Origin: a bacterium
Lineage (GTDB): Bacteria > Bacteroidota > Bacteroidia > Chitinophagales > Chitinophagaceae
Direction: 5' to 3'
DNA length: 45,458 bases
NCBI GenBank assembly: GCA_027364635.1
Contig: DAHXOZ010000006.1
Span: forward strand, 1-45,458
In this document: positions 251-40,131 of the stretch, in pieces
Position numbering within the stretch: the stretch's first letter is position 1
How the letters are laid out: each line of letters starts with the position of its first letter
The notes under the pieces: model-generated
What the model was told of the DNA's origin: nothing
Seen by the model: the letters and a program-made list of their open reading frames with translations, nothing else
Database searches by the model: none
Made by a program: the position numbers and the translations under genes

Positions 251-1552
251 CTATTCTTCTTCACCGGCATTTGTAATTATTGCCATGAGATAGAATGCGC
301 CATTAGTAACAATTTTTGAATTGTCCGGAACATTTTCAAGAGCGGTCACTTCTGTATAGCCGCCGTTTGTGATTCCTTTTTTTACTCTTATCCGTTCAAA
401 ATTAAATGAGGGCTCTCCATTTTCTTTTGATGAATTACTATGAGCGCTGTCCTGTATTTGTATAAAAATATAGTCACTGCCGCTAAAGCTTACCACTGCA
501 TTGGAAAGAACAGCGGTTGATAAATTATTGCCAATGTTTATCAATCCAATCACATTCATGCCTTCAATTAGTTCCTTTACAGGATTGTTTATTTCTGCAT
601 GAACAGGAATTGTTTTTGTTTCATTTTCAAATGCGCTTCCTATAGAATAAATTTTTGCACTAAAGGTCTTACCCGGCAAATTGGTAAGCGTGAAATCCAC
701 ATTTTGATCAATTTTGACTTTTGGTAAATCCTGTTCATACACAAAAAGATCAAGATGTAAATGAGAGTTATCCACTATCTGCATGAAGGTAGTGGAAGGG
801 TCAACAGTTAATCCCAAATTAACATTGACCTTAGCAACATTTCCGTTGATAGGACTTCTCACACTTATTGAAGATGTAATATTGTCTGCAGAAATAGATG
901 AAGCATTCATGCCAATTAAACTGAACTGGCTTTGCAGTGAGTTTACTCTTGCAACTAATGATTTGTAATTTGATGTTGCCTCCTGCACTACTCTCTGAGC
1001 GTTTACATTTTCTTTGGCAAGCTCCTGCTGACGTTCATAATTTGCTTTAGACAAACTTAACTGCGCCTGCGCTTCCAAATAATCCTGTTGCATCTTTATA
1101 AATTCAGGATTAACTATTGTAGCGAGCTTCTGCCCTTTGCGTACATTATCGCCCTCCTGTACATAAATTGATTTAATAGTTCCACCCAAAGGGGAAGTGA
1201 TGGTGGCTTTGCTTTGCGGTGGCACACTTAAAAAACCAGTAGCTTTTAAAACATCAGCAAGATTTTTTTTCTCAAAACTGCCTAACTGAATGTTGATAGC
1301 CTTGTATTGTTTTTGCGATATGGCCACTTCCTTTGCCACGTCTGCTGATTCGGTATCTGTAGCTTTTACAGATGTTGTATCCATTGTTGTGCCTCCTGTT
1401 TTATTTGTTTCTTTAGAAGCGTCTGACTTAGCTCCACAGGAAATAATAGATACAGAAAGAAAGGTTAGCAGAATAAAGCCATAAATTTTGGGGATCATTT
1501 TATTAAATAAATATTTCATTGTTTTTAATTTGATAGTCTTTTTAAATTCCAT
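251..1552 (-). CDS. czcB: RND periplasmic adaptor lipoprotein (CzcB/CusB family), cassette 1
   Basis: Membrane-fusion adaptor that couples the inner-membrane CzcA pump to an outer-membrane channel for divalent-metal efflux. The N-terminus holds a lipoprotein signal with lipobox SIISC near residue 39. Then come a biotinyl/lipoyl-like half-motif ('GGTIKSIYVQEGDNVRKGQKLA', quoted in part), a long alpha-hairpin rich in Gln/Ala/Glu (about 150-215), the second lipoyl half 'SPINGNVAKVNVNLG', and beta-barrel and membrane-proximal domains. The annotated start gives a long n-region; Met12 or Met19 would give a more normal signal peptide. It follows czcA by 17 nt in the same operon. The length of 433 aa is normal. 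Confidence 0.85.
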   Translation of the reverse strand: MEFKKTIKLKTMKYLFNKMIPKIYGFILLTFLSVSIISCGAKSDASKETNKTGGTTMDTTSVKATDTESADVAKEVAISQKQYKAINIQLGSFEKKNLADVLKATGFLSVPPQSKATITSPLGGTIKSIYVQEGDNVRKGQKLATIVNPEFIKMQQDYLEAQAQLSLSKANYERQQELAKENVNAQRVVQEATSNYKSLVARVNSLQSQFSLIGMNASSISADNITSSISVRSPINGNVAKVNVNLGLTVDPSTTFMQIVDNSHLHLDLFVYEQDLPKVKIDQNVDFTLTNLPGKTFSAKIYSIGSAFENETKTIPVHAEINNPVKELIEGMNVIGLINIGNNLSTAVLSNAVVSFSGSDYIFIQIQDSAHSNSSKENGEPSFNFERIRVKKGITNGGYTEVTALENVPDNSKIVTNGAFYLMAIITNAGEEE

Positions 1553-1569
1553 TACTATTTTATTTTAGA

Positions 1570-4500
1570 TTATGTTTCAGTTACTGTTTCTATGCTGTTA
1601 TTTTTTTTATTTTTTTTCCCGGAAAATAGAATATAGAGTGCCGGTAAAACGATCAGGGTTAAAGCTGTTGCAGAGAAGATGCCGCCAATAACTACTGTAG
1701 CTAATGGTCGTTGTACTTCAGCTCCCTGTGAAGTGGCAAGCGCCATGGGTAAAAATCCCAAGGCAGCGAGAAACGAGGCCATTAACACGGGCCGCAGAAT
1801 AGCTCTTGTACCGTGTATCACTCTTTCTTTCACATCTGCCATTCCTTCCTTTTGAAGCTTGTTGAAATAATTGACAAGTACAATTCCGAACAGAACTGCT
1901 ACTCCGAAAAGAGCAATAAATCCAACACCCGCACTAATACTAAAGTTTATCCCACGCATCCATAGAGCGAATACGCCGCCGATTGCTGAAAAGGGAATGG
2001 CGGTATAAATGAGCAATGCCTGCTTTACAGAGTCAAAGGCTGCGTACAATAATAAAAATATCAGCACGAGTGCGATCGGTACGGCTATCATTAAGCGTTG
2101 AGTGGCTTTAACGAGATTTTCAAACTGGCCGCCATAAGTATAATAATATCCTGTTGGAAGTTTTACCTGTTCCCCTAACTTTCTTGAAATCTCTTCCACC
2201 ACAGATTTTACATCCCTTCCACGTACATTAATACCAATCACAATTCTTCTCTTTGCATCTTCCCTGCTTATTTGTGCAGGCCCGTTTACATAATCAATTG
2301 TGGCTACTTGTTTAAGTGGGATTTGCCCTCCACTAGGTAAAGGGACAAAAAGATTACGTACATCTTCAATGTCTTGCCTTTGTGCTTCACTTAACCGTAC
2401 TACTAAATCGAATTTTCGCTCATTTTCAAAAACAGTACCTGCTTTTTCTCCGGCAAAGGCTGTGCGAAGAATGCGATTCAAATCCTGGATATTTAAACTG
2501 TATTGGGCAACGCGGTCACGATTATAAGCCACAGTAATCTGTGGTAAACCCGTCACTTTTTCTACCTGTGGAGAAGCGACTCCTTCGACTGTTTCAATTA
2601 CTTTAGCAGTTTTGTCTGCATAAAAAGCAAGCGAGTCAAGATTTTCGCCGAAAATCTTAACAGCTATATCCTGTTTTACCCCGGTCATCAATTCATTAAA
2701 GCGCATTTGTATTGGCTGAGAGGCTTCGAAAGACACTCCGGGAATTACTCTAAGTGCTTTCAGCATGGTGTCTTGTAAAGTTTCCCTGCTGTGTGCTGTT
2801 GTCCATTCTTTTTGGTCTTTTAAAATAACAGTAATGTCACTGGCTTCGGGCGGCATTGGGTCAGTAGGAATTTCCGCACTGCCGGTTTTACTAACTACTT
2901 CTTTTACTTCAGGGAAACGAAGTAAAATCGTTTCTACCTGTTTATTATTATCAAGGCTTTGAGACAGGGATGAACCTTGCGGCAAAATAGAACTAAAAGT
3001 AAAATCGCCCTCTTCAAGTGTTGGAATGAACTCTCCGCCTAATCTTGAAAAGATGAAAACTGTTGCTATTAGAAATAATACAGCAATTCCGATTACCGCG
3101 AATTTTCTCTTAATAGCAAAATTGATCAGCGGCCTATATCCTCTTTGAAATAAATCCATCAGCTTGTCACTAAAATTCTTTTTATGCGTAGTTTTTTTGC
3201 TAAGCACTAAAGAGCTCATCATCGGAATGTAGGTAAGTGAAAGTATCAATGCACCAATTACTGCGAATGAGACGGTCATGGCCATAGGGCCAAACATTTT
3301 TCCTTCAATACCAACAAGGGTCAAAATAGGAATGTAAACTATTAGAATAATAAATTGTCCGAAAGTAGAGCTGCTGGCTACACTGGAAGCAGACTCATAT
3401 ACCTCGCTGTTCATTTGCTCTGCTGTAAGCATACCAGCGCCCTTGTGATGCCGGTGGCTTTGTGTAATTCGGTGCAGCACTGCTTCAACAATAATTACAG
3501 CGCCATCCACTATTAATCCAAAATCCAAAGCGCCAAGTGACATAAGATTTCCTGAAACATGAAATAAATTCATTAGGATAACCGCAAACAACATAGCGAG
3601 GGGAATAACCGAGGCTACTAAAAGCCCTGCTCTAAAATTCCCAAGAAGAAGAACCAACACGAAAATTACGATCAACGCACCATCTAAAAGATTGCTTTCG
3701 ACTGTTGCTATACTTTTATTAACCAGTACAGTACGGTCAAGGTAAGGCTCAATTCTAACCCCTGCTGGTAAAGATTTCTGAATATCCGGCAGTTTATTTT
3801 TTATGGCTTCCACTACATCAGCGCTGTTTGCGCCTTTTAGCAGCATTACTACGCCGCCAACAACTTCTCCTTCTCCATTGCGTGTCATAGCGCCGTAACG
3901 AATGGCGCTTCCAAATTGAACAGTTGCCACATCCCGAATAAGAACGGGCGTTCCGTTAGGATTTGTTTTTACAACTATTTTACCAATATCTTCCAAAGAG
4001 GTAACCAAACCCAACCCGCGTATAAAATAAGCATTGGGTTTTTTATCTATGTAAGCCCCGCCCGTATTTTCATTATTTTTTTCCAATGCATCAAACACCT
4101 GTGGTATGGTTATATCCATACTCTTTAGCTTGATAGGATCAATGGCCACTTCATATTGTTTTAACAAGCCGCCAAAGCTGTTCACCTCTGCAACACCCGG
4201 CGTTCCTAAAATTCTTCTTGCTACCACCCAGTCCTGCAATGTTCGTAAATCGGATGCACTGTATTTATTTTCATATCCTTTGTCAGGACGAATCACATAT
4301 TGATAGATTTCCCCTAACCCTGTACTTACGGGCCCCATTTCGGGTGTACCGGTACCTGGTGGTATTTCTCCTTCAGCCTCTTTAATTCTCTGGGCTACCA
4401 GTTGCCGTGCAAAATATATATCTACATTGTCTTTGAATACAATAGTAATTACTGATAGTCCAAAACGGCTAATGCTCCGGATTTCAACTAAGTCAGGCAG

Positions 4501-4725
4501 TGTAGCCATGCTGCGTTCTATAGGGAAAGTCACAAATTGTTCAACTTCCTGAGAAGCAAGGGTAGGGCTCGTTGTAATAACCTGTACCTGATTGTTGGTA
4601 ATGTCAGGCACTGCATCAATAGGAAGCTGGGTTAATGAATAGGTTCCATAGATGATTAATGCTATGGTGAAAAGGCCGATTGCAAATTTATTTTTTATTG
4701 AGAATTGAATGATTTTATTGATCAT
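1570..4725 (-). CDS. czcA: HME-RND heavy-metal efflux pump (CzcA family), cassette 1
   Basis: Inner-membrane proton/metal antiporter of the heavy-metal RND family, 1051 aa, full length. The start MINKIIQFSIKNK, TM1 and 'PIDAVPDITNNQVQV' are typical. The TM4 relay LDFGLIVDGAVIIVEA (about 400-415) keeps both Asp residues and the Glu, which is the divalent (Zn/Co/Cd) CzcA pattern rather than the monovalent CusA pattern. In the second half, around residue 940, it reads AVLFGIVLVNYF where the paralogue at 8017-12384 reads AVLNGIVLVSEF, so a conserved region has changed. Unlike its paralogue it has no TolC domain and no separate TolC gene is nearby. It starts 11 nt after the microprotein gene. Confidence 0.93.
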   Translation of the reverse strand: MINKIIQFSIKNKFAIGLFTIALIIYGTYSLTQLPIDAVPDITNNQVQVITTSPTLASQEVEQFVTFPIERSMATLPDLVEIRSISRFGLSVITIVFKDNVDIYFARQLVAQRIKEAEGEIPPGTGTPEMGPVSTGLGEIYQYVIRPDKGYENKYSASDLRTLQDWVVARRILGTPGVAEVNSFGGLLKQYEVAIDPIKLKSMDITIPQVFDALEKNNENTGGAYIDKKPNAYFIRGLGLVTSLEDIGKIVVKTNPNGTPVLIRDVATVQFGSAIRYGAMTRNGEGEVVGGVVMLLKGANSADVVEAIKNKLPDIQKSLPAGVRIEPYLDRTVLVNKSIATVESNLLDGALIVIFVLVLLLGNFRAGLLVASVIPLAMLFAVILMNLFHVSGNLMSLGALDFGLIVDGAVIIVEAVLHRITQSHRHHKGAGMLTAEQMNSEVYESASSVASSSTFGQFIILIVYIPILTLVGIEGKMFGPMAMTVSFAVIGALILSLTYIPMMSSLVLSKKTTHKKNFSDKLMDLFQRGYRPLINFAIKRKFAVIGIAVLFLIATVFIFSRLGGEFIPTLEEGDFTFSSILPQGSSLSQSLDNNKQVETILLRFPEVKEVVSKTGSAEIPTDPMPPEASDITVILKDQKEWTTAHSRETLQDTMLKALRVIPGVSFEASQPIQMRFNELMTGVKQDIAVKIFGENLDSLAFYADKTAKVIETVEGVASPQVEKVTGLPQITVAYNRDRVAQYSLNIQDLNRILRTAFAGEKAGTVFENERKFDLVVRLSEAQRQDIEDVRNLFVPLPSGGQIPLKQVATIDYVNGPAQISREDAKRRIVIGINVRGRDVKSVVEEISRKLGEQVKLPTGYYYTYGGQFENLVKATQRLMIAVPIALVLIFLLLYAAFDSVKQALLIYTAIPFSAIGGVFALWMRGINFSISAGVGFIALFGVAVLFGIVLVNYFNKLQKEGMADVKERVIHGTRAILRPVLMASFLAALGFLPMALATSQGAEVQRPLATVVIGGIFSATALTLIVLPALYILFSGKKNKKNNSIETVTET

Positions 4726-4736
4726 ACTTTAAGGAA

Positions 4737-4892
4737 TTAATATTTAGTCACGAGCTGGTAGTATCTAATGATTATAGCTATAATTGCGCCTATCATTAAA
4801 ATGGACAGGAGGATTATAGTAATAGTCCTGATAACCCTGAACCTGGGCCGGGAAGAAACTCTGCGTTTCTTTTTACTAAATTTTGTGGTCAA
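4737..4892 (-). CDS. small single-pass membrane protein (51 aa), czc-associated, copy 1
   Basis: Unrecognised microprotein. A basic head (KFSKKKRRVSSRPRFR) is followed by one strongly hydrophobic helix (about residues 22-42) and a short polar tail ending LVTKY; inferred topology is N-in. The track starts it at 4937, but the paralogous copy at 12400-12552 has a 1-nt indel upstream that closes that frame. The only conventional start shared by both is the TTG at 4890-4892, in the identical context ACGCCAATTTTGACC. Most nucleotide differences between the copies fall in third codon positions, which argues for selection on the protein. It sits directly before czcA. A pump accessory peptide, by analogy with AcrZ of AcrB, is inference only. 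Confidence 0.6.
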   Translation of the reverse strand: MTTKFSKKKRRVSSRPRFRVIRTITIILLSILMIGAIIAIIIRYYQLVTKY

Positions 4893-4913
4893 AATTGGCG
4901 TATGTAAAAAATG

Positions 4914-4931
4914 AAACAGGATTGCCTGTTT
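4914..4931 (-). terminator. conserved hairpin between DUF6660 gene and microprotein, copy 1
   Basis: On the minus strand AAACAGG-CAAT-CCTGTTT forms a perfect 7-bp stem with a 4-nt loop, followed by CATTTTTT. It looks like a weak intrinsic terminator or attenuator placed upstream of the pump genes. The same stem occurs at the same position in the second cassette. Confidence 0.5.
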
Positions 4932-4965: not shown

Positions 4966-5280
4966 TTACGCCAATTGAGGTGGTTGCCAGATAGACAATG
5001 AAATCTCTTTAATAAAGGATGAATAGAAGGTGTTATACCTTTTTATTAATTCAGGTTTAACAGGAATTAATTTCGCTATTTTTTGGGGAACAGGAAAACC
5101 AGCACAACAAGTGCAAATACAAAATGGTGAGCAGGCATCTTTGGTTGTACGGTTCGTCTGTTGATGATTTGATTTTTGTATTTCTGTTTTTACTTTACTC
5201 ATAGCCTTAGCTCCATCAGCACAGGGTATTATGCTCATCGCCAAAACTATAACCGCTAATATGAAAGCTAAAAATTTCAC
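4966..5280 (-). CDS. DUF6660-like small Cys-rich exported protein, copy 1
   Basis: A 104-aa protein of the Bacteroidota family I recognise as DUF6660; function unknown. A signal-like N-terminus (MKFLAFILAVIVLAMSIIPC) precedes a Cys motif ACSPFCICTCC (about 50-60), a likely metal-binding cluster, and the family tail ISLSIWQPPQL. The start is GTG at 5278-5280, aligned exactly with the TTG start of its paralogue at 12935. A Bacteroidota -7 box ends only 5 nt upstream, so the mRNA may be nearly leaderless. It is the first gene of cassette 1; a periplasmic metal-binding or sensing accessory is inference. Confidence 0.75.
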   Translation of the reverse strand: MKFLAFILAVIVLAMSIIPCADGAKAMSKVKTEIQKSNHQQTNRTTKDACSPFCICTCCAGFPVPQKIAKLIPVKPELIKRYNTFYSSFIKEISLSIWQPPQLA

Positions 5281-6794: not shown

Positions 6795-7994
6795 CTATTC
6801 CTCCTCTTCTGTATTGTGCATTTTAGAAAGTAAATCATAAGCCCCGTTCGTAACTACTTTGCTTTCCATATTAAAGTTGGAAGGCAATTGCACACCGGTA
6901 AAACCGTTTTCAGTAACGGTGATGCCAATTTCAATTTTTCTGAATTTTATATGTTCATCAGCAGTACTATCCTGGCCTTTCGTATTTTGCCCAACTTCTG
7001 CATTTGATTTGTCTTCATCCAGAATAAAAATATAATTTTTGCCGCCAGCCTGAACAACTGCCTTTTGTGGTAAGGCGGTAGTTTGGGAAGCGCCAATTTC
7101 TATGATTGCATTAATAAACATGCCCGGTATAAGAGAAGGCGCCGGATTGATTAACCGGCCACTTACAAGAACGGTTCTGTCGGCATCAATATCTTTACCA
7201 ATCAAAAATATTTCTGCTATGCGTTCTACACTATCCCCTGTGGCTTTAAAGCGTATTTTCTGATTCATCTTTATTTGGGACAGATCCTTTTCAAACACTT
7301 TTACTTTTACCAGTATGTTTTTGGTATTGGCCATATCTGCAAGTACTTCATTAGGGCCAACATATTTTCCTACATTAGAATAAACATGCGTTATGTATCC
7401 GCTAATCGGCGCGTGAATGCTCACACGTGATGTAAAGTTGCCGGACTTTACACTTGCCGGATTAATATTTGCCAACCGCAGTTTAGATTTCAAACCCTCA
7501 ACACGGGCAACCATAGTATTATATTCGCTACCGGCTCTTTGCAAAGATTTCCGGGCTGCAATATTTTCTTTTACCAATTCTTCCTGGCGCGACATATCTT
7601 GTTTCAGAAAAGATAACTGGCTGCTGCTTTCCATATAATCCTGCTGCATTTGTAGAAATTCAGGATTTTCTATTACAGCAATCACCTCTCCCTTTCTTAA
7701 ATATTTACCTTCTATTACCGGCGTGCTTTTTATAATACCGCCGTAATGTGCTGTAATGCTTATGAACTGATTGGGCGGCACATCCAAGGTGCCGGACGCT
7801 TTTATGTAACTACCCAAATTGGTCATGGAAACATTACCCAATTGAACATTTGCATTGTTGTATTGGTCTTGTGAAAATTCTACCAAATTAGGGTCTTGTA
7901 TTTCTGTTACTACCGCTTTTTCTTCTGTTTTGGCGGTGCAGGCTGCAAACAATATGGTGATGGCGAATAAACTTTTATACATTATTTTATACAT
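6795..7994 (-). CDS. czcB: RND periplasmic adaptor lipoprotein (CzcB/CusB family), cassette 2
   Basis: Adaptor paralogous to 251-1552. The lipobox LFAAC at about residue 19 follows a short hydrophobic segment, so the annotated start (MYKIMYKSLFAIT) is good. Lipoyl halves 'GGIIKSTPVIEGKYLRKGEV' and 'APISGYITHVYSNVGKYV' flank the Gln-rich alpha-hairpin (about 115-180). The tail 'SKVVTNGAYDLLSKM' matches the 'SKIVTNGAFYLMA' tail of the other copy. It starts 22 nt after the CzcA-TolC gene. It lacks the heavy-metal-binding CPMHP domain seen in the Cus adaptors of this window. Confidence 0.88.
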   Translation of the reverse strand: MYKIMYKSLFAITILFAACTAKTEEKAVVTEIQDPNLVEFSQDQYNNANVQLGNVSMTNLGSYIKASGTLDVPPNQFISITAHYGGIIKSTPVIEGKYLRKGEVIAVIENPEFLQMQQDYMESSSQLSFLKQDMSRQEELVKENIAARKSLQRAGSEYNTMVARVEGLKSKLRLANINPASVKSGNFTSRVSIHAPISGYITHVYSNVGKYVGPNEVLADMANTKNILVKVKVFEKDLSQIKMNQKIRFKATGDSVERIAEIFLIGKDIDADRTVLVSGRLINPAPSLIPGMFINAIIEIGASQTTALPQKAVVQAGGKNYIFILDEDKSNAEVGQNTKGQDSTADEHIKFRKIEIGITVTENGFTGVQLPSNFNMESKVVTNGAYDLLSKMHNTEEEE

Positions 7995-8016: not shown

Positions 8017-11000
8017 TTAAAGACCGGAAATTAATTCCAGTTCTATTGCGGTTAAGTTATATTGATTAATTACTTCTATGTATTGACGGCGGACATTGTT
8101 GGCATTGTTTAAAGATTGGGATAATTGATAATAATCAATTTCACCTGCCTCAAATGCTCTTTGAGATTTGTTGATAAGCAATTCTGCCTGTGGCAAAGCG
8201 GTTTTGCGGAAATAGCCGATTTGTATCTGAAGCCTTCTTAAATCTGAAAGAAGCAAGGTGCCTCTTTGGGAAAGACCGAAATAAAATGCCTGTACTTCTG
8301 CTTCACGTATCTGCATATTTATTTCCGCAGCACGTATTTTCGCCTTTTGTGGTTTGGCAAAAAGGGGAATACTGATTCCTGCTTCAATGCCCTGGAACCG
8401 CTTACCTGCACCATAGTATTTTTCCCCTCCATTTTTTGGATGATTGCCCACTAATGACTGATTAAAGTATCCTACGCTAAAATCCGGAAGAAGCCTGGCC
8501 TTCTGCACCTTTATTTCTTTTGCCGCTACTTCTATCTGGCTGCGCAATGATTGCAATACCGGATTGTTTCCCAGGATAGAGCTATCCAAACTTAATAACA
8601 CTGTTTTCTCTTTCAACACGCTATCCTCAATACCTGTGATAGTGGTATCATTCATATACTTGCTTAAGAGTTTTAAGTTCGTGTTGATGTACTCATCTAC
8701 CTGTTGCCGTTGGGCAATGGCTTCCTGCAATTGGGTGTTGGCATTGTATTTTTCCAGAATATTCGTTTCACCGGTATTAAACCGGATCTCAGCAGCTTTT
8801 AAAACCCGTTCATACAAAGTGATTAAGGTATCTGCCAATTTTCGCTGTTCATTCCTGTAAAGCAATTGGTGATAAACATTCTTTACCTGAAAGGCTATCT
8901 GGCTCTGATAAATCTTCAGTTGAGAACGGCTGGCGCCTATAGAGGCATCTGCAAGTTCTTTAAGCCTTTTTAGGTAAACAGGATTTGGAATGTTTTGGGT
9001 AATGGTAATGTTATTGTCGTAAGGTATCGGGCTATTGTACTGCCCGTAAGTGAGGTTGATATTGGTTTTACCGATATCTCCTGTACTTCCTTTTAACGTT
9101 TGCTGATATTCGACACCCAGATTTCCTACTCTCATATTTGGATTAGCACTTAGAGAATTGGTTACTGCTGTCTGCAAATTCACTTTATTACTGACAGGGC
9201 TTTGTGCGTAGGAATAATTGGTACTACCCAACAATAAAAACAATATGGTTATGATAGTAGGAATTGTGGACTTTCTTCTCCTTATCTTTATTTTTTCAAA
9301 CATGGTATAAAGCACCGGCAATACAATGAGCGTTAAGAATGTCGCTGTTATCAATCCACCTATAACAACAGTAGCCAAAGGCTTTTGAACTTCTGCACCG
9401 GCACCATGTGATAATGCCATTGGTAAAAACCCTAACGAAGCAACAGTAGCAGTCATTAATACAGGCCGTAGCCTTGTTGCGGTACCTGTAAGAATAATCT
9501 TGTTCAAATTACGCATACCATTCTTTTTTAGCTGGTTAAACTCACTGACCAGCACAATTCCGTTTAGCACAGCTACCCCAAACAGTGCAATAAATCCAAT
9601 ACCTGCGGAAATACTGAAAGGCATTCCTCTTAGCCATAATGCGAATATGCCACCTATAGCAGATAGGGGAATGGCTGTAAAAATTAATAAGGAATATTTG
9701 ATAGAACCAAAAGCAAAATATAGTAATAAAAGAATCAGGCCCAGCGCTACCGGAACGGCAACAGATAATCGTTTATTAGCTTCTTCCAGGTTTTTGAACT
9801 GGCCGCCATAAGTAATGAAATAGCCCGTGGGCATTTTTATTTTCGCATCAATCTTTTGTTGCATTTCTTTTACCACCGAAGCAATATCCCTGCCTCTTAC
9901 ATTGAAGCCAACGATAATTCTTCGCTTACCATCTTCTCTCTGAATTTGGTTAGGGCCTAATTGAAAGCTTATATTCGCAACCTGTTCCAATGGAATATTT
10001 TTTCCGTCTTTGGTGGTAACAAAAAGCCTTTTTACATCATCTATACTTTGGCGTTCTGCTTCCTGAAGGCGTACTACCAAATCAAATCGCTTTTCTCCTT
10101 CAAATACAGTACCGGCAACACCACCTGCAAATGCGGTGTTAATTGCCTGGTTAATGTCTGAAACATTCAATCCATACTGAGCAATTTTATCACGATTGAG
10201 TTTGATAGAAATCTGTGGCAGTCCGGTTAACTGTTCCAGGTATAAATCCTCCGCACCTTTTACCGTTGGAACGATAGCGCCTATTTTTTTTGATAATTCT
10301 GTTAATACCTGCAGGTCTTCGCCAAATATTTTAATACCCACATCTTGTTTAACACCTGATAATAATTCATTGGACCGCAATTGGATTGGCTGAGAAAACC
10401 CGAATGTAACACCCGGAATTACTTCAAGGCTTTTCTCCATCAGTTCAGTGAGTCCTTCCCGGGTCTCGGCGCTAGTCCATTCTGCTTTTGGCTTTAATAT
10501 AACGGTTACATCAGCAGCCTCAATAGGCATAGGGTCTGTGGGTATTTCAGACGAGCCAATTTTGCCAATCACTTCTTTTACCTCCGGAAATGTTTTCATT
10601 AAAATATCAGAAGCCTGGGTTACTTTATCTATGGATTGGCTTAACGAACTTCCTGTGAGCAACCTGGTTTCAATAGCAAAATCCCCTTCATCCAGGGTGG
10701 GTATAAATTCGCCCCCAAGAGTAGAGAATACAACTAATGAAATAGCCAGAAGGCCTACTGCAATACCCACTACTAATAATCTCATTCGTAAAGCGCCTTT
10801 AATAAGTGGCTCATACCACTTTTGAACGCGAGCCATCATTCTATCAGAAATATTCTTTTTATGACTGATATTCTTACTTAAAAACAAAGAACTAATCATT
10901 GGCACATAAGTAACTGATAAAATTAAAGCGCCCAGGATAGCAAAAGAAACGGTCTCAGCCATTGGCCTGAACATTTTACCTTCCACGCCTACCAATGCAA

Positions 11001-12384
11001 GAATCGGTAAATAAACTATTAGAATAATAATTTGTCCGAAAGCCGCGGAATTCATCATTTTTTTTGATGCAGTACCCACTTCGCTATCCATTTCTGCCTG
11101 GGTTATTCTTCCCGCCTTTCGACGAGCGATATGATGCATGGTAGCTTCTACAATAATGACTGCACCATCCACAATTAATCCAAAATCTATTGCGCCAAGG
11201 CTCATAAGATTGCCGGTTACACCAAACACCTTCATTAAGGAAATAGCAAAAAGCATGGCTAACGGAATCACAGAGGCGACTATCAATCCTGACCGTACAT
11301 TTCCAAGGAAAACGACCAGTACAAAAATTACAATTAATGCTCCTTCCAATAGATTTTTCTCAACAGTACTAATGGCTCTTGCTACAAATTCACTTCTGTC
11401 TAAAAATGGCTCTACAACAACTCCCTCCGGTAGGGATTTATTTATTTGAATCATTTTTTCTTTAACGCTGTTTACAACTGCACTCGCATTGCTTCCTTTT
11501 AACAACATTACAATACCACCTACCGCTTCTTTATCATTCCGGGTGAAGGCGCCATAACGATTAGCAGCACCAAATTTAACAGTGGCTACATCGCGGATGG
11601 TAACCGGAACGCCACTTTCTGTATTCTTTACTACAATTCTTTCAATGTCGCCCAGGTTTGTTATCAGGCCTTCACTTCTTATGAAATAAGCATTTGGTTT
11701 CTTATCAATGTAAGAACCACCGGTGTTTTGATTATTGTTTTCAAGCGCGGTAAATATGTCTGATATGGAAATATTGTAGCTCCTTACCCTGTCAATATTC
11801 AAAGCAATTTCATATTGCTTCAAATAACCGCCAAAGCTATTTACTTCCGCTATACCCGGGGTTCCTAACAATTGTCTTCTTACAATCCAATCCTGAATGG
11901 TGCGCAGGTCCATCGCATTGTATTTGTCTTCATATCCTTTTTTAGCATGTAACACGTATTGGTATATTTCACCCAAACCCGTGGAAATAGGAGCCATTTC
12001 CGGCAGGCCTAAGCCGGGCGCTATAGAATTTTTAGCTTCGGTTATCCGTTCTGATACTTGCTGGCGCGCCCAATAAATATCGGCATCATCATGAAATATT
12101 ACCGTAACTACTGAAAGCCCAAAACGGGAAATGGAACGCACTTCCTCAATTTCAGGAATGGTTGCCATGGTCTGTTCTACGGGGAAAGAAATAAATTGCT
12201 CTACTTCCTGTGCTGCCAGCGAAGGGCTTATTGTAATAATTTGAACCTGGTTATTGGTAATGTCGGGGATAGCGTCTATTGGTAATTTTGAAGCGCTCCA
12301 TGCCCCCCAAATAATAAGGGCGAGCGTAAAAATCCCTATAACCAGTTTATTTTTAATGGAAAAATCAATGATCTTATTTAGCAT
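8017..12384 (-). CDS. czcA: CzcA-type heavy-metal RND pump fused to a TolC outer-membrane factor
   Basis: A 1455-aa fusion. Residues 1 to about 1036 are a full CzcA-type antiporter ('PIDAIPDITNNQVQI'; TM4 relay IDFGLIVDGAVIIVEA with two Asp and Glu; 'AVLNGIVLVSEF' in the second half). After a basic linker (KIKIRRRK) comes a second signal-like segment, TIPTIITILFLLLGS...SYAQ, with an AQ-S cleavage-like site near 1061. About 394 residues of TolC/OprM family follow (coiled-coil repeats, 'GIEAGISIPLFAKPQKAKI'). The internal signal suggests the polypeptide is cut so that the TolC part reaches the outer membrane. Such fusions are known in Bacteroidota. Together with CzcB it makes a complete tripartite divalent-metal exporter. 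Confidence 0.92.
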   Translation of the reverse strand: MLNKIIDFSIKNKLVIGIFTLALIIWGAWSASKLPIDAIPDITNNQVQIITISPSLAAQEVEQFISFPVEQTMATIPEIEEVRSISRFGLSVVTVIFHDDADIYWARQQVSERITEAKNSIAPGLGLPEMAPISTGLGEIYQYVLHAKKGYEDKYNAMDLRTIQDWIVRRQLLGTPGIAEVNSFGGYLKQYEIALNIDRVRSYNISISDIFTALENNNQNTGGSYIDKKPNAYFIRSEGLITNLGDIERIVVKNTESGVPVTIRDVATVKFGAANRYGAFTRNDKEAVGGIVMLLKGSNASAVVNSVKEKMIQINKSLPEGVVVEPFLDRSEFVARAISTVEKNLLEGALIVIFVLVVFLGNVRSGLIVASVIPLAMLFAISLMKVFGVTGNLMSLGAIDFGLIVDGAVIIVEATMHHIARRKAGRITQAEMDSEVGTASKKMMNSAAFGQIIILIVYLPILALVGVEGKMFRPMAETVSFAILGALILSVTYVPMISSLFLSKNISHKKNISDRMMARVQKWYEPLIKGALRMRLLVVGIAVGLLAISLVVFSTLGGEFIPTLDEGDFAIETRLLTGSSLSQSIDKVTQASDILMKTFPEVKEVIGKIGSSEIPTDPMPIEAADVTVILKPKAEWTSAETREGLTELMEKSLEVIPGVTFGFSQPIQLRSNELLSGVKQDVGIKIFGEDLQVLTELSKKIGAIVPTVKGAEDLYLEQLTGLPQISIKLNRDKIAQYGLNVSDINQAINTAFAGGVAGTVFEGEKRFDLVVRLQEAERQSIDDVKRLFVTTKDGKNIPLEQVANISFQLGPNQIQREDGKRRIIVGFNVRGRDIASVVKEMQQKIDAKIKMPTGYFITYGGQFKNLEEANKRLSVAVPVALGLILLLLYFAFGSIKYSLLIFTAIPLSAIGGIFALWLRGMPFSISAGIGFIALFGVAVLNGIVLVSEFNQLKKNGMRNLNKIILTGTATRLRPVLMTATVASLGFLPMALSHGAGAEVQKPLATVVIGGLITATFLTLIVLPVLYTMFEKIKIRRRKSTIPTIITILFLLLGSTNYSYAQSPVSNKVNLQTAVTNSLSANPNMRVGNLGVEYQQTLKGSTGDIGKTNINLTYGQYNSPIPYDNNITITQNIPNPVYLKRLKELADASIGASRSQLKIYQSQIAFQVKNVYHQLLYRNEQRKLADTLITLYERVLKAAEIRFNTGETNILEKYNANTQLQEAIAQRQQVDEYINTNLKLLSKYMNDTTITGIEDSVLKEKTVLLSLDSSILGNNPVLQSLRSQIEVAAKEIKVQKARLLPDFSVGYFNQSLVGNHPKNGGEKYYGAGKRFQGIEAGISIPLFAKPQKAKIRAAEINMQIREAEVQAFYFGLSQRGTLLLSDLRRLQIQIGYFRKTALPQAELLINKSQRAFEAGEIDYYQLSQSLNNANNVRRQYIEVINQYNLTAIELELISGL

Positions 12385-12399: not shown

Positions 12400-12552
12400 T
12401 TATTTAGTCACAAGCTCGTAGTATCTAATGATTACAGCTATGATTGCGCGTATCATCAAAATGGACAGGATGATTATAGTAATTGTTCTAATAATCCTGA
12501 ACCTTGGCCGGGAAGAAACTTTACGTTTCTTTTTACTAAATTTTGTGGTCAA
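12400..12552 (-). CDS. small single-pass membrane protein (50 aa), czc-associated, copy 2
   Basis: Absent from the ORF track. From the TTG at 12550-12552 the frame encodes a basic head (KFSKKKRKVSSRPRFR) and one hydrophobic helix, ending LVTK, then TAA. Against copy 1 at 4737-4892 I count about 14 base differences over the aligned 3' part, of which about 8 are in third positions, and the protein changes are conservative (V/I, L/I, I/V, R/K, Q/E) apart from G/R inside the helix. The frame upstream closes at a TAA and offers no other standard start. It sits 15 nt before the CzcA-TolC gene, the same place as copy 1. Function unknown. Confidence 0.6.
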   Translation of the reverse strand: MTTKFSKKKRKVSSRPRFRIIRTITIIILSILMIRAIIAVIIRYYELVTK

Positions 12553-12572
12553 AATTGGCGTGTTGCAAAATG

Positions 12573-12623: not shown

Positions 12624-12935
12624 TTACGCCAATTTGGGTGGTTGCCAGACAGACAATGAAATTCCTTTAATAAAGGATGAATAGATGGTGTTATACCTTT
12701 TTTTTAATTCAGGTTTAACAAGAATTAATTTCGCTATAACCTGGGGAATGGGTGAATCCGTACAGCATGAACAACTGCAAATAGGAGGGCAGGTATCATT
12801 TAGCGGATTGTCATGCTGATAAGACGTTTTTGTTATCTCTGTCGTTGCCTTACTATTCATTGTATTTGCATCAGTACATGGCACTACGCTAAGTACTAAA
12901 ATTACAAGAGCTAATATGGAGGCTATAAATTTCAA
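12624..12935 (-). CDS. DUF6660-like small Cys-rich exported protein, copy 2
   Basis: A 103-aa paralogue of 4966-5280. Signal-like start KFIASILALVILVLSVVPC, Cys cluster TCPPICSCSCC in the middle, and an almost identical tail (RYNTIYSSFIKGISLSVWQPPKL). The start is a TTG at 12933-12935, at the same position as the GTG of copy 1. A degenerate -7 box (TACCTTCG) lies just upstream. It heads cassette 2, 88 nt downstream of the GDCCVxC gene. Probably periplasmic and metal binding; that is inference from the Cys cluster and its neighbours. Confidence 0.72.
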   Translation of the reverse strand: MKFIASILALVILVLSVVPCTDANTMNSKATTEITKTSYQHDNPLNDTCPPICSCSCCTDSPIPQVIAKLILVKPELKKRYNTIYSSFIKGISLSVWQPPKLA

Positions 12936-13239: not shown

Positions 13240-13848
13240 TTATTTTAATTTTGTATGAGTTACTTTATATCCGGTTGAATTAATAGCCTTTGTAATTTCA
13301 GCAATATTTGTTTTTGAGTTGTCGAATTGAACCGTTGCATTCGCATTTTGATAGGATGCTTCCGACTTTAAAATTCCTTGCAACTTATTGACTTCGTAAT
13401 TTACTTCTTCGGTGCAGCCTTCACAAGTCATACCGCTTATTTTAAATTCTGCTGATTGAATATTTGATTTTTCAACAAATACTATTTGCTTTTCAGTCTT
13501 TGGAAAAAATATTTTTGAGTAGTAGGGAAACGCAATCATTACGGCTGCAAAAATGGTTACCAGCAAGAGAAATGATTTTGATTGAACAAACTTTGATTTC
13601 TCATCTGTAGCACAACCACAATCATCAGGATTCTTTCGTTTTAATTTCAGATACCATGCCAATGCTAATGCAGCGACTGATAATCCGATTAAATAAGGTC
13701 TTGCAGGTTCTATCCATAAAAAGGTAGCTGCAATACTGCTGCTTCCGGCAAGTAATGCAACAACGGGGGTTATACAACAAAGGGAAGCAGCAATTGCTGA
13801 AAGAACGCCAGCACCTGTAAATGTACCGGATGATTTTATAGGTATCAT
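13240..13848 (-). CDS. merTP: mercuric transport protein MerTP (MerT-MerP fusion), module A
   Basis: A 202-aa fusion. The N-terminal MerT part has three TM helices with the Hg-binding vicinal pair in TM1 (AASLCCITPVVALLAG) and a cytoplasmic Cys pair (DDCGCA, near 77). The C-terminal MerP-like HMA domain has ISGMTCEGC (about 138-146). It takes Hg2+ from the periplasm and moves it inward for reduction. The stop abuts the GDCCVxC gene and the start overlaps the regulator by 4 nt. No merA lies beside this copy; the only MerA in the window is in module B at 29411-30841. Confidence 0.9.
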   Translation of the reverse strand: MIPIKSSGTFTGAGVLSAIAASLCCITPVVALLAGSSSIAATFLWIEPARPYLIGLSVAALALAWYLKLKRKNPDDCGCATDEKSKFVQSKSFLLLVTIFAAVMIAFPYYSKIFFPKTEKQIVFVEKSNIQSAEFKISGMTCEGCTEEVNYEVNKLQGILKSEASYQNANATVQFDNSKTNIAEITKAINSTGYKVTHTKLK

Positions 13849-14222
13849 AGTGTTTCCAATTTTTGAGTTTGCTGGTTAATGTATTTGAAGAAAGGATTTA
13901 AAATCTTTAGGTTTTCCCGTGTAAGGGTATAATAAATGGTTTGTCCTTCCCTTCTGGTTTCTACAACATTTCCATCCTTTAATTTCCGTAAATGTTGTGA
14001 TACGGCCGGAATACTCATGCCTAAAATATCGGCGAGGTCGCAAGGGCACAATTCTTTTTCTTCTTCCAATAAATAAATAATTTTAAGCCTGGCTTCATTG
14101 CCCGCTAAAGCTAAAACGTTGGATAGCTGATTAAATGACTTTTGAGCCACTTTCAGCTTGTCTTTACAATTGTTTATTTGTTCCAAATCTGCAAACAATC
14201 TTATACAGGTATTATTTTCCAT
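13845..14222 (-). CDS. ArsR/SmtB-family metal-responsive repressor (CadC-like), module A
   Basis: A 125-aa winged-helix repressor. The recognition region is MSIPAVSQHLRKLKDGNVVETRREGQTIYYTL in outline (quoted here only to name it: 'MSIPAVSQHLRKL' then 'EGQTIYYTL'). Before it is LCPCDL, the C-x-C of the alpha3/CadC site, and Cys residues also lie near the N-terminus (NTCIRL, NNCKDK), as in CadC's alpha3N metal site. It probably senses Hg, Cd or Pb and releases its own promoter. A palindrome covering the -33 box lies just upstream. First gene of merR-like/merTP/GDCCVxC. Confidence 0.88.
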   Translation of the reverse strand: MENNTCIRLFADLEQINNCKDKLKVAQKSFNQLSNVLALAGNEARLKIIYLLEEEKELCPCDLADILGMSIPAVSQHLRKLKDGNVVETRREGQTIYYTLTRENLKILNPFFKYINQQTQKLETL

Positions 14223-14226
14223 TTAG

Positions 14227-14267
14227 CAAAGATAAAATATATAAGTATTTAAGCAAATGCTTAAATA
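14227..14267 (-). promoter_or_regulatory. promoter and palindromic operator of module A regulator
   Basis: Minus strand: -33 TTTG (14254-14257), a 19-nt spacer, -7 TATCTTTG (14227-14234), then 4 nt to the ATG, a textbook Bacteroidota promoter with almost no leader. A 22-bp perfect palindrome (14246-14267; core TTTAAGCAAATGCTTAAA) covers the -33 box and is the likely repressor site. A near-identical palindrome stands before the module B regulator. Confidence 0.72.
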
Positions 14268-14329
14268 AGAATAAATGCAAATTTCCTGTGAATAATAATA
14301 ACTCAGAACCAGTAGCACTGGCTCAAAAA

Positions 14330-14965
14330 TTACTTCCTCTTGAAACTACAAAAAACAAAATTCTGAATAGTGTTGAAAGGCGTGGTATGATTCACTTCAA
14401 TACATTTAATTCTGTCAAATGCTATTTCAAACCTTGCTGACATGGATGCTTCTGAATATTGTTTTATTTCTAATCCGCTACATTTCTTAGGCCCTTTTTC
14501 TGAAAAGGTACCAAGTATTAAGTAACCATCTTTTTTTATAGCATCTTCTGCAATGGATACATATTTGTATATGCTATCTTCAGTTGTTATAAAATGAAAC
14601 GCTGCCCTGTCATGCCAAAAATCAAATTGTATCGGTGGCTCAAAATCCGTTACATCTGAAACAACCCAATGAACTTTTGATGCTCTTGCTCCTAATCTTT
14701 GTTTCGCTTTTTCAATTGCATTTGATGAAATATCAAGCACCCAAATATTTTGATACCCTTTTTCAAGTAGTGCATCAACGAAATGGCTTTCCCCACCGCC
14801 TATGTCAATGATATTGGCAGTTACAGGCAGTTTGAATAATTCTATAAACTCCATTGAAGTCTTTGGATATTCTTGAAACCAGCTAACCTCCTTTTCACTT
14901 TTTGAACGGAAAATATTTTCCCAATATTCCTTTTCTGTTTTTGCCACAATGAGCAGGTTTATCAT
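14330..14965 (-). CDS. class I SAM-dependent methyltransferase
   Basis: A 211-aa soluble methyltransferase. 'YWENIF...EVSWFQEYP' is the usual N-terminus of this subgroup; motif I is IIDIGGGESHFVDALL (about 51-66), motif II 'IWVLDIS', and the middle 'FDFWHDRAAFHF' and 'GTFSEKGPKKCSGLEIKQYS' are subgroup hallmarks. Its substrate is unknown; related genes recur in metal, tellurite or thiopurine-type detoxification contexts. It starts 23 nt after copB, so the two are probably co-transcribed, although a TAnnTTTG box also lies in the gap. Confidence 0.8.
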   Translation of the reverse strand: MINLLIVAKTEKEYWENIFRSKSEKEVSWFQEYPKTSMEFIELFKLPVTANIIDIGGGESHFVDALLEKGYQNIWVLDISSNAIEKAKQRLGARASKVHWVVSDVTDFEPPIQFDFWHDRAAFHFITTEDSIYKYVSIAEDAIKKDGYLILGTFSEKGPKKCSGLEIKQYSEASMSARFEIAFDRIKCIEVNHTTPFNTIQNFVFCSFKRK

Positions 14966-14988
14966 TGTTTAAAATTGATACAAATTTA

Positions 14989-17073
14989 TCAACGCTTTAT
15001 TTTCAACATACTTGCATTTATTGCAACTACAATGGTACTAACGCTCATCAACGCCGCACCTGCCGCAGGGCTTAATAATATTCCATAGTTATACAAAACT
15101 CCCGCTGCCAATGGTAAGGCAATAACGTTGTAACCCGTTGCCCACATTAGGTTTTGCACCATTTTGCGATAGGTTGCTTTACCAAATAAAATCAGGTTGA
15201 CAATATCTTTTGGGTTACTGTTTACCAATATGATTCCTGCTGTTTCCGCTGCTATGTCACTGCCGCTTCCAACTGCGATTCCAATATCAGCCTGTGCCAA
15301 TGCGGGCGCATCGTTTACCCCATCGCCAGTCATGGCAACGTATTCACCTTTGCTTTGCAGGTCTTTTATCTTTTCTAATTTCTGATGCGGCAATACTTCT
15401 GCAATAAAACTATCCATGCCCAAAGTCTTGCTCACTGTTTCCGCAACATTTTTATTATCTCCTGTTAGCAAAATGGATTTGATGTTATTCTTTTTTAATT
15501 CCTGAATTGCTTCCTTTGATTCAAGGCGTATTTCGTCTGACAAAGCAATGTAGCCCGCCAATGCATTATCAATGATTACAAACACAATTGTTTCTGCAGC
15601 GTCTGTTTTAAAATTTTCCGGAAATGGAATATTATTTTCTTTTAAAAATCCGGGGCTTACTACTTTTACATTTTTGCCTTCCACAATAGCTTCCACGCCT
15701 TTGCCTGTAATGGCATTAAAATTTTCCGTTGCCGGAATCGTAATTTTTAAATCTTTTACTTTTTGTAAAATCCCTGTAGCAATCGGATGTTCAGAGTTTT
15801 GTTCCAATGCGGAAGCAATGCGAATCAATTCATTCTCTGATAAGCCATTTTGTAGGGAAACCACTTTTGAAACTTCAAATTTTCCGATGGTTAATGTGCC
15901 GGTCTTATCAAAAACCAATGTGGTTATTTTTCTGCTGTTCTCAAATGCAGTCCGGTTTTTAATCAGCAATCCATTTTTAGCAGATAAAGCCGTTGATTTG
16001 GCCACTACTAATGGCACTGCCAATCCTAAAGCATGAGGGCAACAAATTACTATCACGGTTACCATTCTTTCCATGGCAAACGCCAAAGTTTTTCCATCCA
16101 CATACCAATATATAAAAGTAGCTACACCTGCAAGAATGGCAATGCCCGTAAGCCATTGCGCTGCTTTATCGGCCAGCAATTGCGTATTGGATTTTGCATT
16201 CTGAGCATCCTTCACCAATTTAACCACCTGCGATAAATAAGAATCCTTGGCGCCATGAGCCACTCGTATTTTTAATGAGCCATTTCCGTTTAGTGAACCT
16301 GCAATTAACTGATCACCTTTTGATTTTTTTACTGGTTTAGATTCGCCGGTAAGCATACTTTCATTGAGATAACTTTCTCCGTCTTCAATGATGCCATCAG
16401 CCGCTACTTTTTCACCTGGCTTGATAAGAATAATATCGTTTTCTTTAAGTGTCTCCGTCTTTACATCCTTAACCTCAGCTCCATTAACCAAATGAGCATC
16501 TGCGGGCATCAATTGCACCAACAATTCTAGTTCTTTTGACGCCCCTGCTACTGATTTCATTTCTATCCAATGCCCTAAAAGCATGATAAGGATTAACGTG
16601 GCAAGTTCCCAAAAGAAATCCATTCCTTCTAAACCAAAAACAGTTGCCGAACTATAGATATAAGCTACGGAAATGGCGAAGCCAATTAATGTCATCATAC
16701 CGGGATTCCAGAATTTCATTTCCTGATACCAGCCTTTCAAAAAAGGCCATCCGCCATATAAATAAACAATGGTTGACAAAGCAAATAAAATGTATCCGGA
16801 ACCTGCAAACTTCCAGTCAACATCAAGCCAATGCTGTATCATAGGCGACAACAACAGAATTGGAATGGTTAGAATTAATGTAACAAAAAATCTCTTTTTA
16901 AAATCCATAATCATCATCGCATGATGGTCATGGCCTTCCATTCCCATTGATGGATTTGCATCATGATGCATGGAACTGTGGCCCATTTTACTATGATCCG
17001 CTTTATTAATTTTCTTCTCTATTTCTTTTTTAGACGTCATCTGATGGCCCGAATTGTGCTGATGATTTTCCAT
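14989..17073 (-). CDS. copB: copper-translocating P1B-type ATPase, CopB type
   Basis: A 694-aa inner-membrane ATPase that exports copper or silver to the periplasm. The first ~60 residues are His/Met-rich (HSKMGHSSMHHD, GHDHHAMM) with no CxxC HMA domain, which is the CopB (P1B-3) style. The transport motif is CPH (CCPHALGLAVPLV, about 344), also CopB-specific rather than the CPC of CopA. Phosphorylation site DKTGTLTIG at about 390, actuator TGES, and hinge MTGDGVNDAPALAQADIG near 590. Length and domain order are complete. The start is right beside the His-rich region. Confidence 0.93.
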   Translation of the reverse strand: MENHQHNSGHQMTSKKEIEKKINKADHSKMGHSSMHHDANPSMGMEGHDHHAMMIMDFKKRFFVTLILTIPILLLSPMIQHWLDVDWKFAGSGYILFALSTIVYLYGGWPFLKGWYQEMKFWNPGMMTLIGFAISVAYIYSSATVFGLEGMDFFWELATLILIMLLGHWIEMKSVAGASKELELLVQLMPADAHLVNGAEVKDVKTETLKENDIILIKPGEKVAADGIIEDGESYLNESMLTGESKPVKKSKGDQLIAGSLNGNGSLKIRVAHGAKDSYLSQVVKLVKDAQNAKSNTQLLADKAAQWLTGIAILAGVATFIYWYVDGKTLAFAMERMVTVIVICCPHALGLAVPLVVAKSTALSAKNGLLIKNRTAFENSRKITTLVFDKTGTLTIGKFEVSKVVSLQNGLSENELIRIASALEQNSEHPIATGILQKVKDLKITIPATENFNAITGKGVEAIVEGKNVKVVSPGFLKENNIPFPENFKTDAAETIVFVIIDNALAGYIALSDEIRLESKEAIQELKKNNIKSILLTGDNKNVAETVSKTLGMDSFIAEVLPHQKLEKIKDLQSKGEYVAMTGDGVNDAPALAQADIGIAVGSGSDIAAETAGIILVNSNPKDIVNLILFGKATYRKMVQNLMWATGYNVIALPLAAGVLYNYGILLSPAAGAALMSVSTIVVAINASMLKIKR

Positions 17074-24938: not shown

Positions 24939-25022
24939 GTGTTTATTTTTATTGACAACATTTTTTCTTGTGAACAAAAACTGTTCTAAGAATTTTAAGT
25001 ATCACTTTTTTAAAAATTTTCA

Positions 25023-38189: not shown

Positions 38190-38190
38190 T

Positions 38191-39474
38191 TTATTTAGGT
38201 TTATTAGCAGGATTGTTTTGCCATTCAGATAAGTTGTGATACGCGTTTTCCGACATGATAATGCCATTGTCAACAATAACTCCTATAGCCAGCGCTATCC
38301 CTGTAAGCGACATAATATTGGAAGAAAGGCCAAACGCATTTAGTAAAATAAAGCTGATGGCAATCGTGACGGGAATCTGGATAATGATATTCAGGGCGCT
38401 GCGCCAATGAAACAGGAAGAGTAAAACGATCAGCGAAACTGCGATCATTTCTTCTATTAATTTTCCTTTGATATTTTCTATGGCAGCTTCAATTAATGTG
38501 CTGCGGTCGTACGCGAATTTAAAATGAACTCCCTCAGGCAATCCTTTTTCAACCACTTCCATTTTTGCTTTTACATCATGAATTACTTTATCAGCGTTTT
38601 CCCCATATCGCATCACTACTATTCCTCCAACAACTTCTCCTTCGCCATTTTGATCAAAAATGCCTAACCGTTCGCCGCCGCCTAACTGTACTGTACCAAT
38701 ATCTTTTATCCTGACAGGAATACCGTTGTTATTGGCAATTCCTATGTTTTCGATGTCTTCTTTGTTCTTTATGTAACCAAGACCGCGAATAATGTAAGAC
38801 ATATCGCTCATCTCAAATTTTCGTCCACCAACATCATTGTTATTGGCTTTCACTTTGTTCATCACATCCATCAGCGAGATATTGTAATACTGCAATTTCA
38901 ATGGATCAACCACGATTTGGTATTGCTTTTCAAAGCCACCGAAAGATGCTATTTCTGCAACCCCGGGAACGGTTTGCAAAGCAAATTTGATGTACCAGTC
39001 CTGCAAAGTTCTTTGCTCGCCGAGGTCTAAATTTTTAGCGTCTAACGTGTACCAAAGAATATGCCCAACGCCTGTTCCATCAGGGCCGAGCGCAGGAGTA
39101 ACACCGGGCGGAAGCAAACGCTGTGCATAATTCAAGCGTTCCAACACGCGGGTTCTTGCCCAATAAATATCTACATTATCTTCAAAAATTACATACACAA
39201 AACTCATCCCGAACATAGAAGTGCCGCGAATGTTTTTGACCTTTGGAATACCCTGGAGGTTGGATACCAAAGGGAATGTGATCTGGTCTTCCATGATCTG
39301 TGGGCTTTGGCCTTCCCATTCTGTAAAAACAATTACCTGGTTTTCCGAAAGATCGGGAATGGCATCAATCGGATTTTTTTGTACGGCGTAGATTCCCCAC
39401 GCAAACAAGCTCAATGCAATTACCAAAACAATATACCTGTTGCGGAGTGAAAGTTCAATTAGTTTCTGAACCAT
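38191..39474 (-). CDS. cusA: CusA-type RND pump, N-terminal part of a split gene
   Basis: 427 aa: TM1 ('IVLVIALSLFAWGIYAV'), 'NPIDAIPDLSENQVIVFTEW', the first periplasmic domain with 'GTSMFGMSFVYVIF', and TM2-TM4 ending IGVIVDNGIIMSENAYHNLSEW. The single relay Asp (no DFG Asp) marks a monovalent Cu(I)/Ag(I) pump. The ORF then stops (KPK-TAA) in the cytoplasmic loop before TM5. The sequence reads CCT AAA TAA A ATG, so reinitiation on the second half is possible. First pump gene of the operon, 148 nt after a HYC_CC_PP gene. Confidence 0.87.
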   Translation of the reverse strand: MVQKLIELSLRNRYIVLVIALSLFAWGIYAVQKNPIDAIPDLSENQVIVFTEWEGQSPQIMEDQITFPLVSNLQGIPKVKNIRGTSMFGMSFVYVIFEDNVDIYWARTRVLERLNYAQRLLPPGVTPALGPDGTGVGHILWYTLDAKNLDLGEQRTLQDWYIKFALQTVPGVAEIASFGGFEKQYQIVVDPLKLQYYNISLMDVMNKVKANNNDVGGRKFEMSDMSYIIRGLGYIKNKEDIENIGIANNNGIPVRIKDIGTVQLGGGERLGIFDQNGEGEVVGGIVVMRYGENADKVIHDVKAKMEVVEKGLPEGVHFKFAYDRSTLIEAAIENIKGKLIEEMIAVSLIVLLFLFHWRSALNIIIQIPVTIAISFILLNAFGLSSNIMSLTGIALAIGVIVDNGIIMSENAYHNLSEWQNNPANKPK

Positions 39475-40009: not shown

Positions 40010-40017
40010 TGTTCGCG

Positions 40018-40025
40018 CAAAGATA
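40018..40025 (-). promoter_or_regulatory. Bacteroidota -7 promoter element upstream of HYC_CC_PP/Cus genes
   Basis: TATCTTTG on the minus strand, ending 8 nt before the GTG start at 40009. The same octamer serves both mercury regulators. The nearest TTTG is 23 nt upstream, longer than the usual 19. Confidence 0.45.
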
Positions 40026-40131
40026 AAGTTATTTGAGATTCTGTTTTACAAAGAATTTCATAAGTTCGTATAATGTAATGGTAAATTTATGTACCAATTT
40101 GAAAAAATAGAAAGACTGAATTTAATAAAAT

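Follow-up and report, generated by a model that had tools for sequence, protein, structure and literature searches.

The window, the whole 45,458-nt stretch of DNA that was analysed, carries two operons in the order DUF6660, microprotein, czcA, czcB, so that in each a short reading frame lies between a gene for a DUF6660 protein and a gene for a CusA/CzcA-family RND pump. Their genes are as follows.

251-1552, minus strand: czcB-like membrane-fusion protein of cassette 1 (PF16576)
1570-4725, minus strand: czcA copy 1, a CusA/CzcA-family RND pump of 1051 aa (PF00873, TIGR00914), 11 nt after the microprotein stop
4737-4892, minus strand: microprotein copy 1 of 51 aa (TTG, 50 codons and a stop; TTG at 4892-4890, stop at 4739-4737), with a basic N-terminus, one TM helix and a RYYQLVTKY end
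4966-5280, minus strand: DUF6660 copy 1 (PF20365, E 7e-13), exported-looking and Cys-rich (CSPFCICTCC), ending IWQPPQLA
6795-7994, minus strand: czcB-like membrane-fusion protein of cassette 2 (PF16576)
8017-12384, minus strand: czcA copy 2 (PF00873 and PF02321, TIGR00914), 15 nt after the microprotein stop; a single 1455-aa polypeptide joins the pump to an outer-membrane factor domain
12400-12552, minus strand: microprotein copy 2 of 50 aa, with a TTG start and 88% identical to copy 1
12624-12935, minus strand: DUF6660 copy 2 (PF20365, E 3.7e-11), ending VWQPPKLA

A sequence-only reading had picked out the frame at 4737-4892 and its copy at 12400-12552 as encoding a Lys/Arg-rich head followed by one hydrophobic helix, and the sequence bears this out. 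AlphaFold2 models copy 1 as a single helix (residues 16-50, with pLDDT 90-96 over residues 21-50); one TM helix in about 50 residues is an AcrZ-like size and architecture. The concentration of basic residues at the N-terminus suggests that this end is cytoplasmic. The TTG start proposed for both copies holds, because relatives have GTG or ATG starts at the aligned position; most family members start with ATG.

The same reading had stated beforehand that a frame confined to the two copies would count against it. We found the frame conserved well beyond them, in many genera. Comparison of the 51-aa protein with 99 related genomes gave close relatives in the equivalent position in other genera. 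A profile built from eight members and run on 195 genomes of the taxonomic family gave true matches from E 3.5e-23 to about 1e-4, with a clear gap before the noise, and 26 of the 27 matches with E <= 1.2e-4 lay between DUF6660 and czcA (a second copy in genome G157 is counted among these). Other genera yielded strong profile matches (E 1e-15 to 1e-23), all but one between DUF6660 and czcA, and searches of the whole order and class brought in members from other taxonomic families, with the same gene order. Scanning named genomes with a narrower profile gave 20 named loci, with members in Flavihumibacter, Sediminibacterium, Lacibacter cauensis, Niastella vici and Paraflavitalea, cultured isolates among them. 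Members occur in about 38 Bacteroidota genomes, nearly all of them between DUF6660 and czcA; three different members used as queries found no match in a plasmid collection. Many of the sampled genomes are metagenome assemblies, and four copies (L043, L044, L046 and L147) look frameshifted, some perhaps through assembly errors.

Members are about 46-63 aa long and share a layout of basic head, Arg and Lys ahead of the helix, an Ala that is invariant in 30/30 non-redundant members, and a [KHR][YF][YF][RHK] motif near the C-terminus, in its narrower form [KHR][YF][YF]R. For member pairs more than 60% identical, dN/dS was mostly 0.05-0.5, with an excess of third-position changes, well below the value near 1 that the sequence-only reading had named as adverse. 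Judged by the wider family, the microprotein is under purifying selection, and on these sequence grounds the short frame is a genuine gene encoding a small membrane protein. None of the 22 members scanned reached the curated cut-off of any Pfam or NCBIfam family, and the family is apparently unnamed and without an entry in either. With its fixed position beside HME-RND pump genes, this agrees with the earlier description of a conserved but undescribed membrane microprotein. Among solved structures we found no homologue (best E 0.25), and conservation was not concentrated on one helix face, as a packed interface might show (p 0.49).

The two window copies differ at 14 bases over 50 aligned codons (5, 1 and 8 at codon positions 1, 2 and 3), with 8 synonymous and 6 non-synonymous changes and a dN/dS of 0.21. 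The count made earlier, 14 changes of which 8 are third-position, was right, but not the aligned length of about 43 codons that went with it. The whole block of DUF6660 3' end, spacer and microprotein is about 80-92% identical between copies, and identity drops sharply at the czcA start. Because the spacer is as conserved as the frame, the window pair is poor independent evidence of selection, and the inter-copy changes offered as such evidence carry little weight. We therefore rely on the wider family for selection.

We aligned the two window operons with an orthologous one from a congener (L005). Operon 2 matched L005 along most of its length (mostly 77-92% in the upstream region and czcA); operon 1 matched operon 2 and L005 well only in DUF6660 and the microprotein, with identity down to mostly 50-75% once czcA begins. 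CzcA1 and CzcA2 differ by 35% in their N-terminal parts and fall in separate clades. Because the pumps belong to different clades and identity breaks at czcA, the likeness of the microproteins does not come from whole cassettes duplicated long ago. The two paralogous efflux cassettes of the sequence-only reading are thus not simple paralogues; what they share closely is the DUF6660-microprotein block, which probably came to stand before a different czcA through recombination, by transfer or conversion.

The gene ahead of the microprotein resembles a known kind of regulatory leader. According to PMC9973294, CutF is exported and binds Cu, and a Pro-rich motif at its C-terminus slows the ribosome that makes it, which opens a stem hiding the start of the next gene. 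CutF-like proteins are there defined by a Pro-Pro within about 15 C-terminal residues, a Cys/His metal-binding motif and an N-terminal Sec signal peptide; many come from Bacteroidota, and ACR_tran pumps are listed among the genes downstream (PMC9973294). We found a Pro-Pro inside the last 16 residues in 115/115 DUF6660 proteins, nearly all as W-x-P-P, and candidate metal-binding Cys motifs of the C[ST]PFCxCxCC type in most of the 115; the N-terminus is hydrophobic by eye. DUF6660 is a putative CutF-like leader with the published sequence features, and by analogy with CutF it may stall ribosomes and sense metal. None of the open-access papers searched names DUF6660, and an earlier description may exist outside them.

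A second kind of Cys/Pro-Pro leader-like gene is present in the window (39623-40045, minus strand), encoding an HYC_CC_PP family protein (NF047658) just upstream of a third CusA/CzcA-type pump (36249-39474, minus strand). This pump is split by a frameshift, in the gene or in the assembly, into two overlapping ORFs (38191-39474, covering ACR_tran 2-419, and 36249-38276, covering ACR_tran 420-1019). MerT-HMA, ArsR-type regulator, P-type ATPase and multicopper oxidase genes lie at 13240-17073 and 22347-24977 (minus strand), and the contig resembles a metal-resistance island.

In both copies and in L005, the end of DUF6660 can pair with the ten bases preceding the microprotein start (about -21 kcal/mol, z about -5). 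The elements in the window are as follows.

4893-4902, minus strand: outer stem 3' arm of copy 1, directly ahead of the microprotein TTG (TACGCCAATT)
4914-4931, minus strand: inner hairpin of copy 1, AAACAGG-caat-CCTGTTT and then a T-rich stretch, within the outer stem
4967-4976, minus strand: outer stem 5' arm of copy 1, formed by the last DUF6660 codons and the stop codon (AATTGGCGTA); fold -21.2 kcal/mol, z -5.0
12552-12561, minus strand: outer stem 3' arm of copy 2, extending to the first base of the TTG
12626-12635, minus strand: outer stem 5' arm of copy 2; fold -21.5 kcal/mol, z -4.7

In a swap test we paired the DUF6660 end of each locus with its own next gene or with the next genes of other loci. 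At loci without a microprotein, native pairs were clearly more stable over positions -24 to 0 of czcA (-7.20 versus -3.40 kcal/mol, 0/5000 permutations), and the signal was concentrated at -30 to +6. At loci with a microprotein, native pairing at its start reached -5.84 versus -5.00 kcal/mol (19/5000), and pairing at czcA gave 283/5000; the arm signal is weak across microprotein loci (0.8 kcal/mol) and strong in both window copies. No swap signal appeared within the GGTTATG-start clade, and small unexplained signals were also seen inside the coding region (+24 to +60). By eye, L041 has TTAGCC/GGCTAA where L042 has TTAGTC/GACTAA, a suggestive change on both sides of the pairing. Folds and swap tests together predict an mRNA stem that would shield the start of the next gene, clear ahead of czcA and weaker ahead of the microprotein. 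We rejected the idea that the inner hairpin is only a terminator, as hairpins are also present at loci without a microprotein. No Rfam family was found in the window.

Across loci, the microprotein starts 61-88 nt behind DUF6660, and the gap from the microprotein to czcA is 3-17 nt in 32/33 of them. Because czcA starts so closely behind the microprotein stop, its translational coupling to the microprotein is likely, and from its position the microprotein is probably made when the pump is made. A few loci depart from this arrangement. In L058 (G030; 1414-3096, plus strand) the microprotein frame is open into czcA without a stop, a possible natural fusion; we did not rely on it as a Rosetta-stone fusion, since an N-in helix would turn CzcA the wrong way round and czcA still has an ATG of its own. 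L052 (G153; 1390-1659, plus strand) holds an orphan relative with a P-type ATPase-like gene on one side and genes for bestrophin and a CDF exporter on the other, surroundings that once more have to do with metals. L235 (G692) has a second, intact copy beside a czcA remnant, after an MntR-like regulator gene, in what looks like a decaying cassette. L041/L066 and L064 have, upstream of DUF6660 and about 700 nt ahead of the microprotein, another kind of small ORF with one TM helix and a basic head (MKRKKQPATKGKTKK...). It comes behind the C-terminal end of a longer ORF that has a membrane anchor; a similar small ORF occupies the microprotein position in L139.

We then compared the microprotein with its two neighbours at 33 loci, using the N-terminal 480 residues of CzcA. 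Microprotein distances correlated with those of DUF6660 (Mantel r 0.52, 0/2000; partial r 0.50), a correlation that linkage may explain in part, and not with those of CzcA once DUF6660 was allowed for (partial r 0.006). CzcAs about 2% apart in this region carry microproteins 70-80% apart. A microprotein is present in 13-16 of 85 DUF6660-czcA pairs, and in none of those sampled with a spacer under about 230 nt. Its presence requires 13 changes on the CzcA tree, against 28.6 in shuffles; it is clustered, yet scattered over the tree and not confined to one clade, and we rejected a single-clade origin with one CzcA type. Because there is no co-variation with CzcA and most DUF6660-czcA operons lack the microprotein, CzcA-type pumps do not generally depend on it. 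The lack of co-variation also argues against a tight, specific CzcA interface. The microprotein as a CzcA subunit, as first proposed, is so far unsupported by these comparisons, and direct binding to CzcA, which that reading inferred, finds no backing in co-variation.

These results bear on what the microprotein is for. We consider it a little short of an even chance that it is an accessory membrane protein belonging to the pump module and that a metal-sensing nascent leader releases its translation, along with that of the czcA coupled to it. Its position is what suggests an action on the pump, this being the simplest use for a co-made membrane protein. The main rival has the microprotein serving the DUF6660 leader instead, for example near the translocon or the nascent DUF6660 chain, or as a translational relay ORF that hands the leader's signal to czcA, in which case the membrane helix would merely keep the mRNA or ribosome at the membrane. 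This would suit a microprotein that tracks DUF6660 and not CzcA, a block that moves as a unit in the window with its break at the czcA start, and arms that appear to gate the microprotein start where there is one. However, linkage alone makes adjacent genes co-vary, most DUF6660 leaders manage without a microprotein and pair directly with czcA, and the residue-level conservation of the helix and YYR motif exceeds the needs of a relay, so we regard a role in serving the leader as unlikely.

The two orphans, one in the P-type ATPase/bestrophin/CDF set (L052) and one beside the czcA remnant and MntR-like gene (L235), would fit a general metal-stress membrane protein that shares the operon by chance and acts on something else, such as lipids, a protease or another transporter. 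Only about 2 of some 40 loci are orphans, however, and a czcA remnant remains at L235, which makes such a protein rather unlikely. In another reading the microprotein is a small membrane anti-sigma factor like CnrY, with a periplasmic sensor as its partner. Such a factor would be a small single-TM protein with a predicted cytoplasmic N-terminus beside a periplasmic-looking Cys-rich protein, and there is a weak, sub-threshold Sigma_reg_N match (E 0.02). We hold this very improbable: the window operon has no sigma factor gene, the N-terminal part has about 15-30, mostly basic residues, and DUF6660 is CutF-like rather than CnrX-like. Finally, structured RNA or recent gene conversion could imitate conservation where there is no gene at all, as might be read from the inter-copy spacer, conserved as much as the frame, and from the RNA structure upstream of the microprotein. 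The spread over many genera, the conserved residues, low dN/dS, open frames and ATG starts, and above all the codon conservation across the family, speak so strongly against this that we find it scarcely credible.

The small accessory proteins known for RND pumps come chiefly from the drug pumps of Enterobacteria, and we know of none described for heavy-metal RND pumps. CydX and KdpF-type proteins are small membrane subunits, each a tiny single helix, encoded in operons next to a large complex; the microprotein gene likewise adjoins a large complex to which it could belong, but no homology of the protein to any Pfam or NCBIfam family was found, and the pump is a candidate partner. The likeness to CnrY/CnrX of Cupriavidus is that of a small membrane protein beside a periplasmic one in an RND metal operon; in contrast, the microprotein operon is without a sigma factor, and no family match is significant. 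AcrZ, the 49-aa modulator of AcrB in E. coli (Hobbs 2012; PMC7267776), is also a single-helix small membrane protein tied to an RND pump and co-regulated with it. AcrZ acts on a drug pump, however, whereas the microprotein gene stands between the leader and pump genes of an operon for a heavy-metal pump, and the AcrZ N-terminus is periplasmic (PMC7267776), whereas that of the microprotein is predicted to be inside. We rejected homology to AcrZ (hhalign probability 0.5%). A protein of the AcrZ family would also be expected to bind the transmembrane domain of its RND pump, a contact to which the missing co-variation with CzcA lends no support. The HME-RND accessory subunit of the sequence-only reading is so far unsupported: the likely topology is the reverse of that of AcrZ, and near-identical CzcAs carry very different microproteins. 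With CruR (PMC9426467) and the CutF-like (DUF2946-type) nascent-chain sensors that precede metal genes (PMC9973294), DUF6660 shares size, Cys motif, C-terminal Pro-Pro and a downstream stem; it differs in that the first gene behind it is the microprotein, not the main metal gene. The passages of PMC9973294 consulted make no mention of a microprotein-type gene behind a CutF-like leader.

Starting from what computation established, namely the gene family, the selection on it, its position, the leader sequence features and the complementary arms, we propose the following for the accessory protein of the pump module. The nascent DUF6660 chain would bind metal outside the membrane, and the ribosome, slowed on the Trp-Gln-Pro-Pro codons near the C-terminus, would sit over the final codons and stop of DUF6660. 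Left uncovered, this stretch would pair with the start of the next gene; with the ribosome on it, that start would be free. The microprotein would be translated first behind the switch, and coupling would carry translation on into czcA, which in most members begins 3-17 nt farther on. With its predicted cytoplasmic N-terminus, one helix and short C-terminus bearing the YYR-type motif, the microprotein would sit in the inner membrane alongside the pump, which it would assist or modulate without being essential. In this scheme the stalling and metal sensing of DUF6660 are supposed from CutF. Possible, but on the doubtful side, is a broader reading in which these proteins form a new RND-associated class, gated by a nascent-chain metal sensor. 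The leader would first open translation of the microprotein, which, made together with the pump through coupling, would tune whichever CzcA follows, with leader and microprotein as an exchangeable control cassette.

The family supplies many natural variants in culturable genera, among them Flavihumibacter, Sediminibacterium, Lacibacter, Niastella and Paraflavitalea. Its loci also suggest that DUF6660 exerts control of the CutF type, the RNA arms at each locus being matched to the start of whichever gene comes next, and that leader and microprotein form a cassette that may be exchanged ahead of different pumps.
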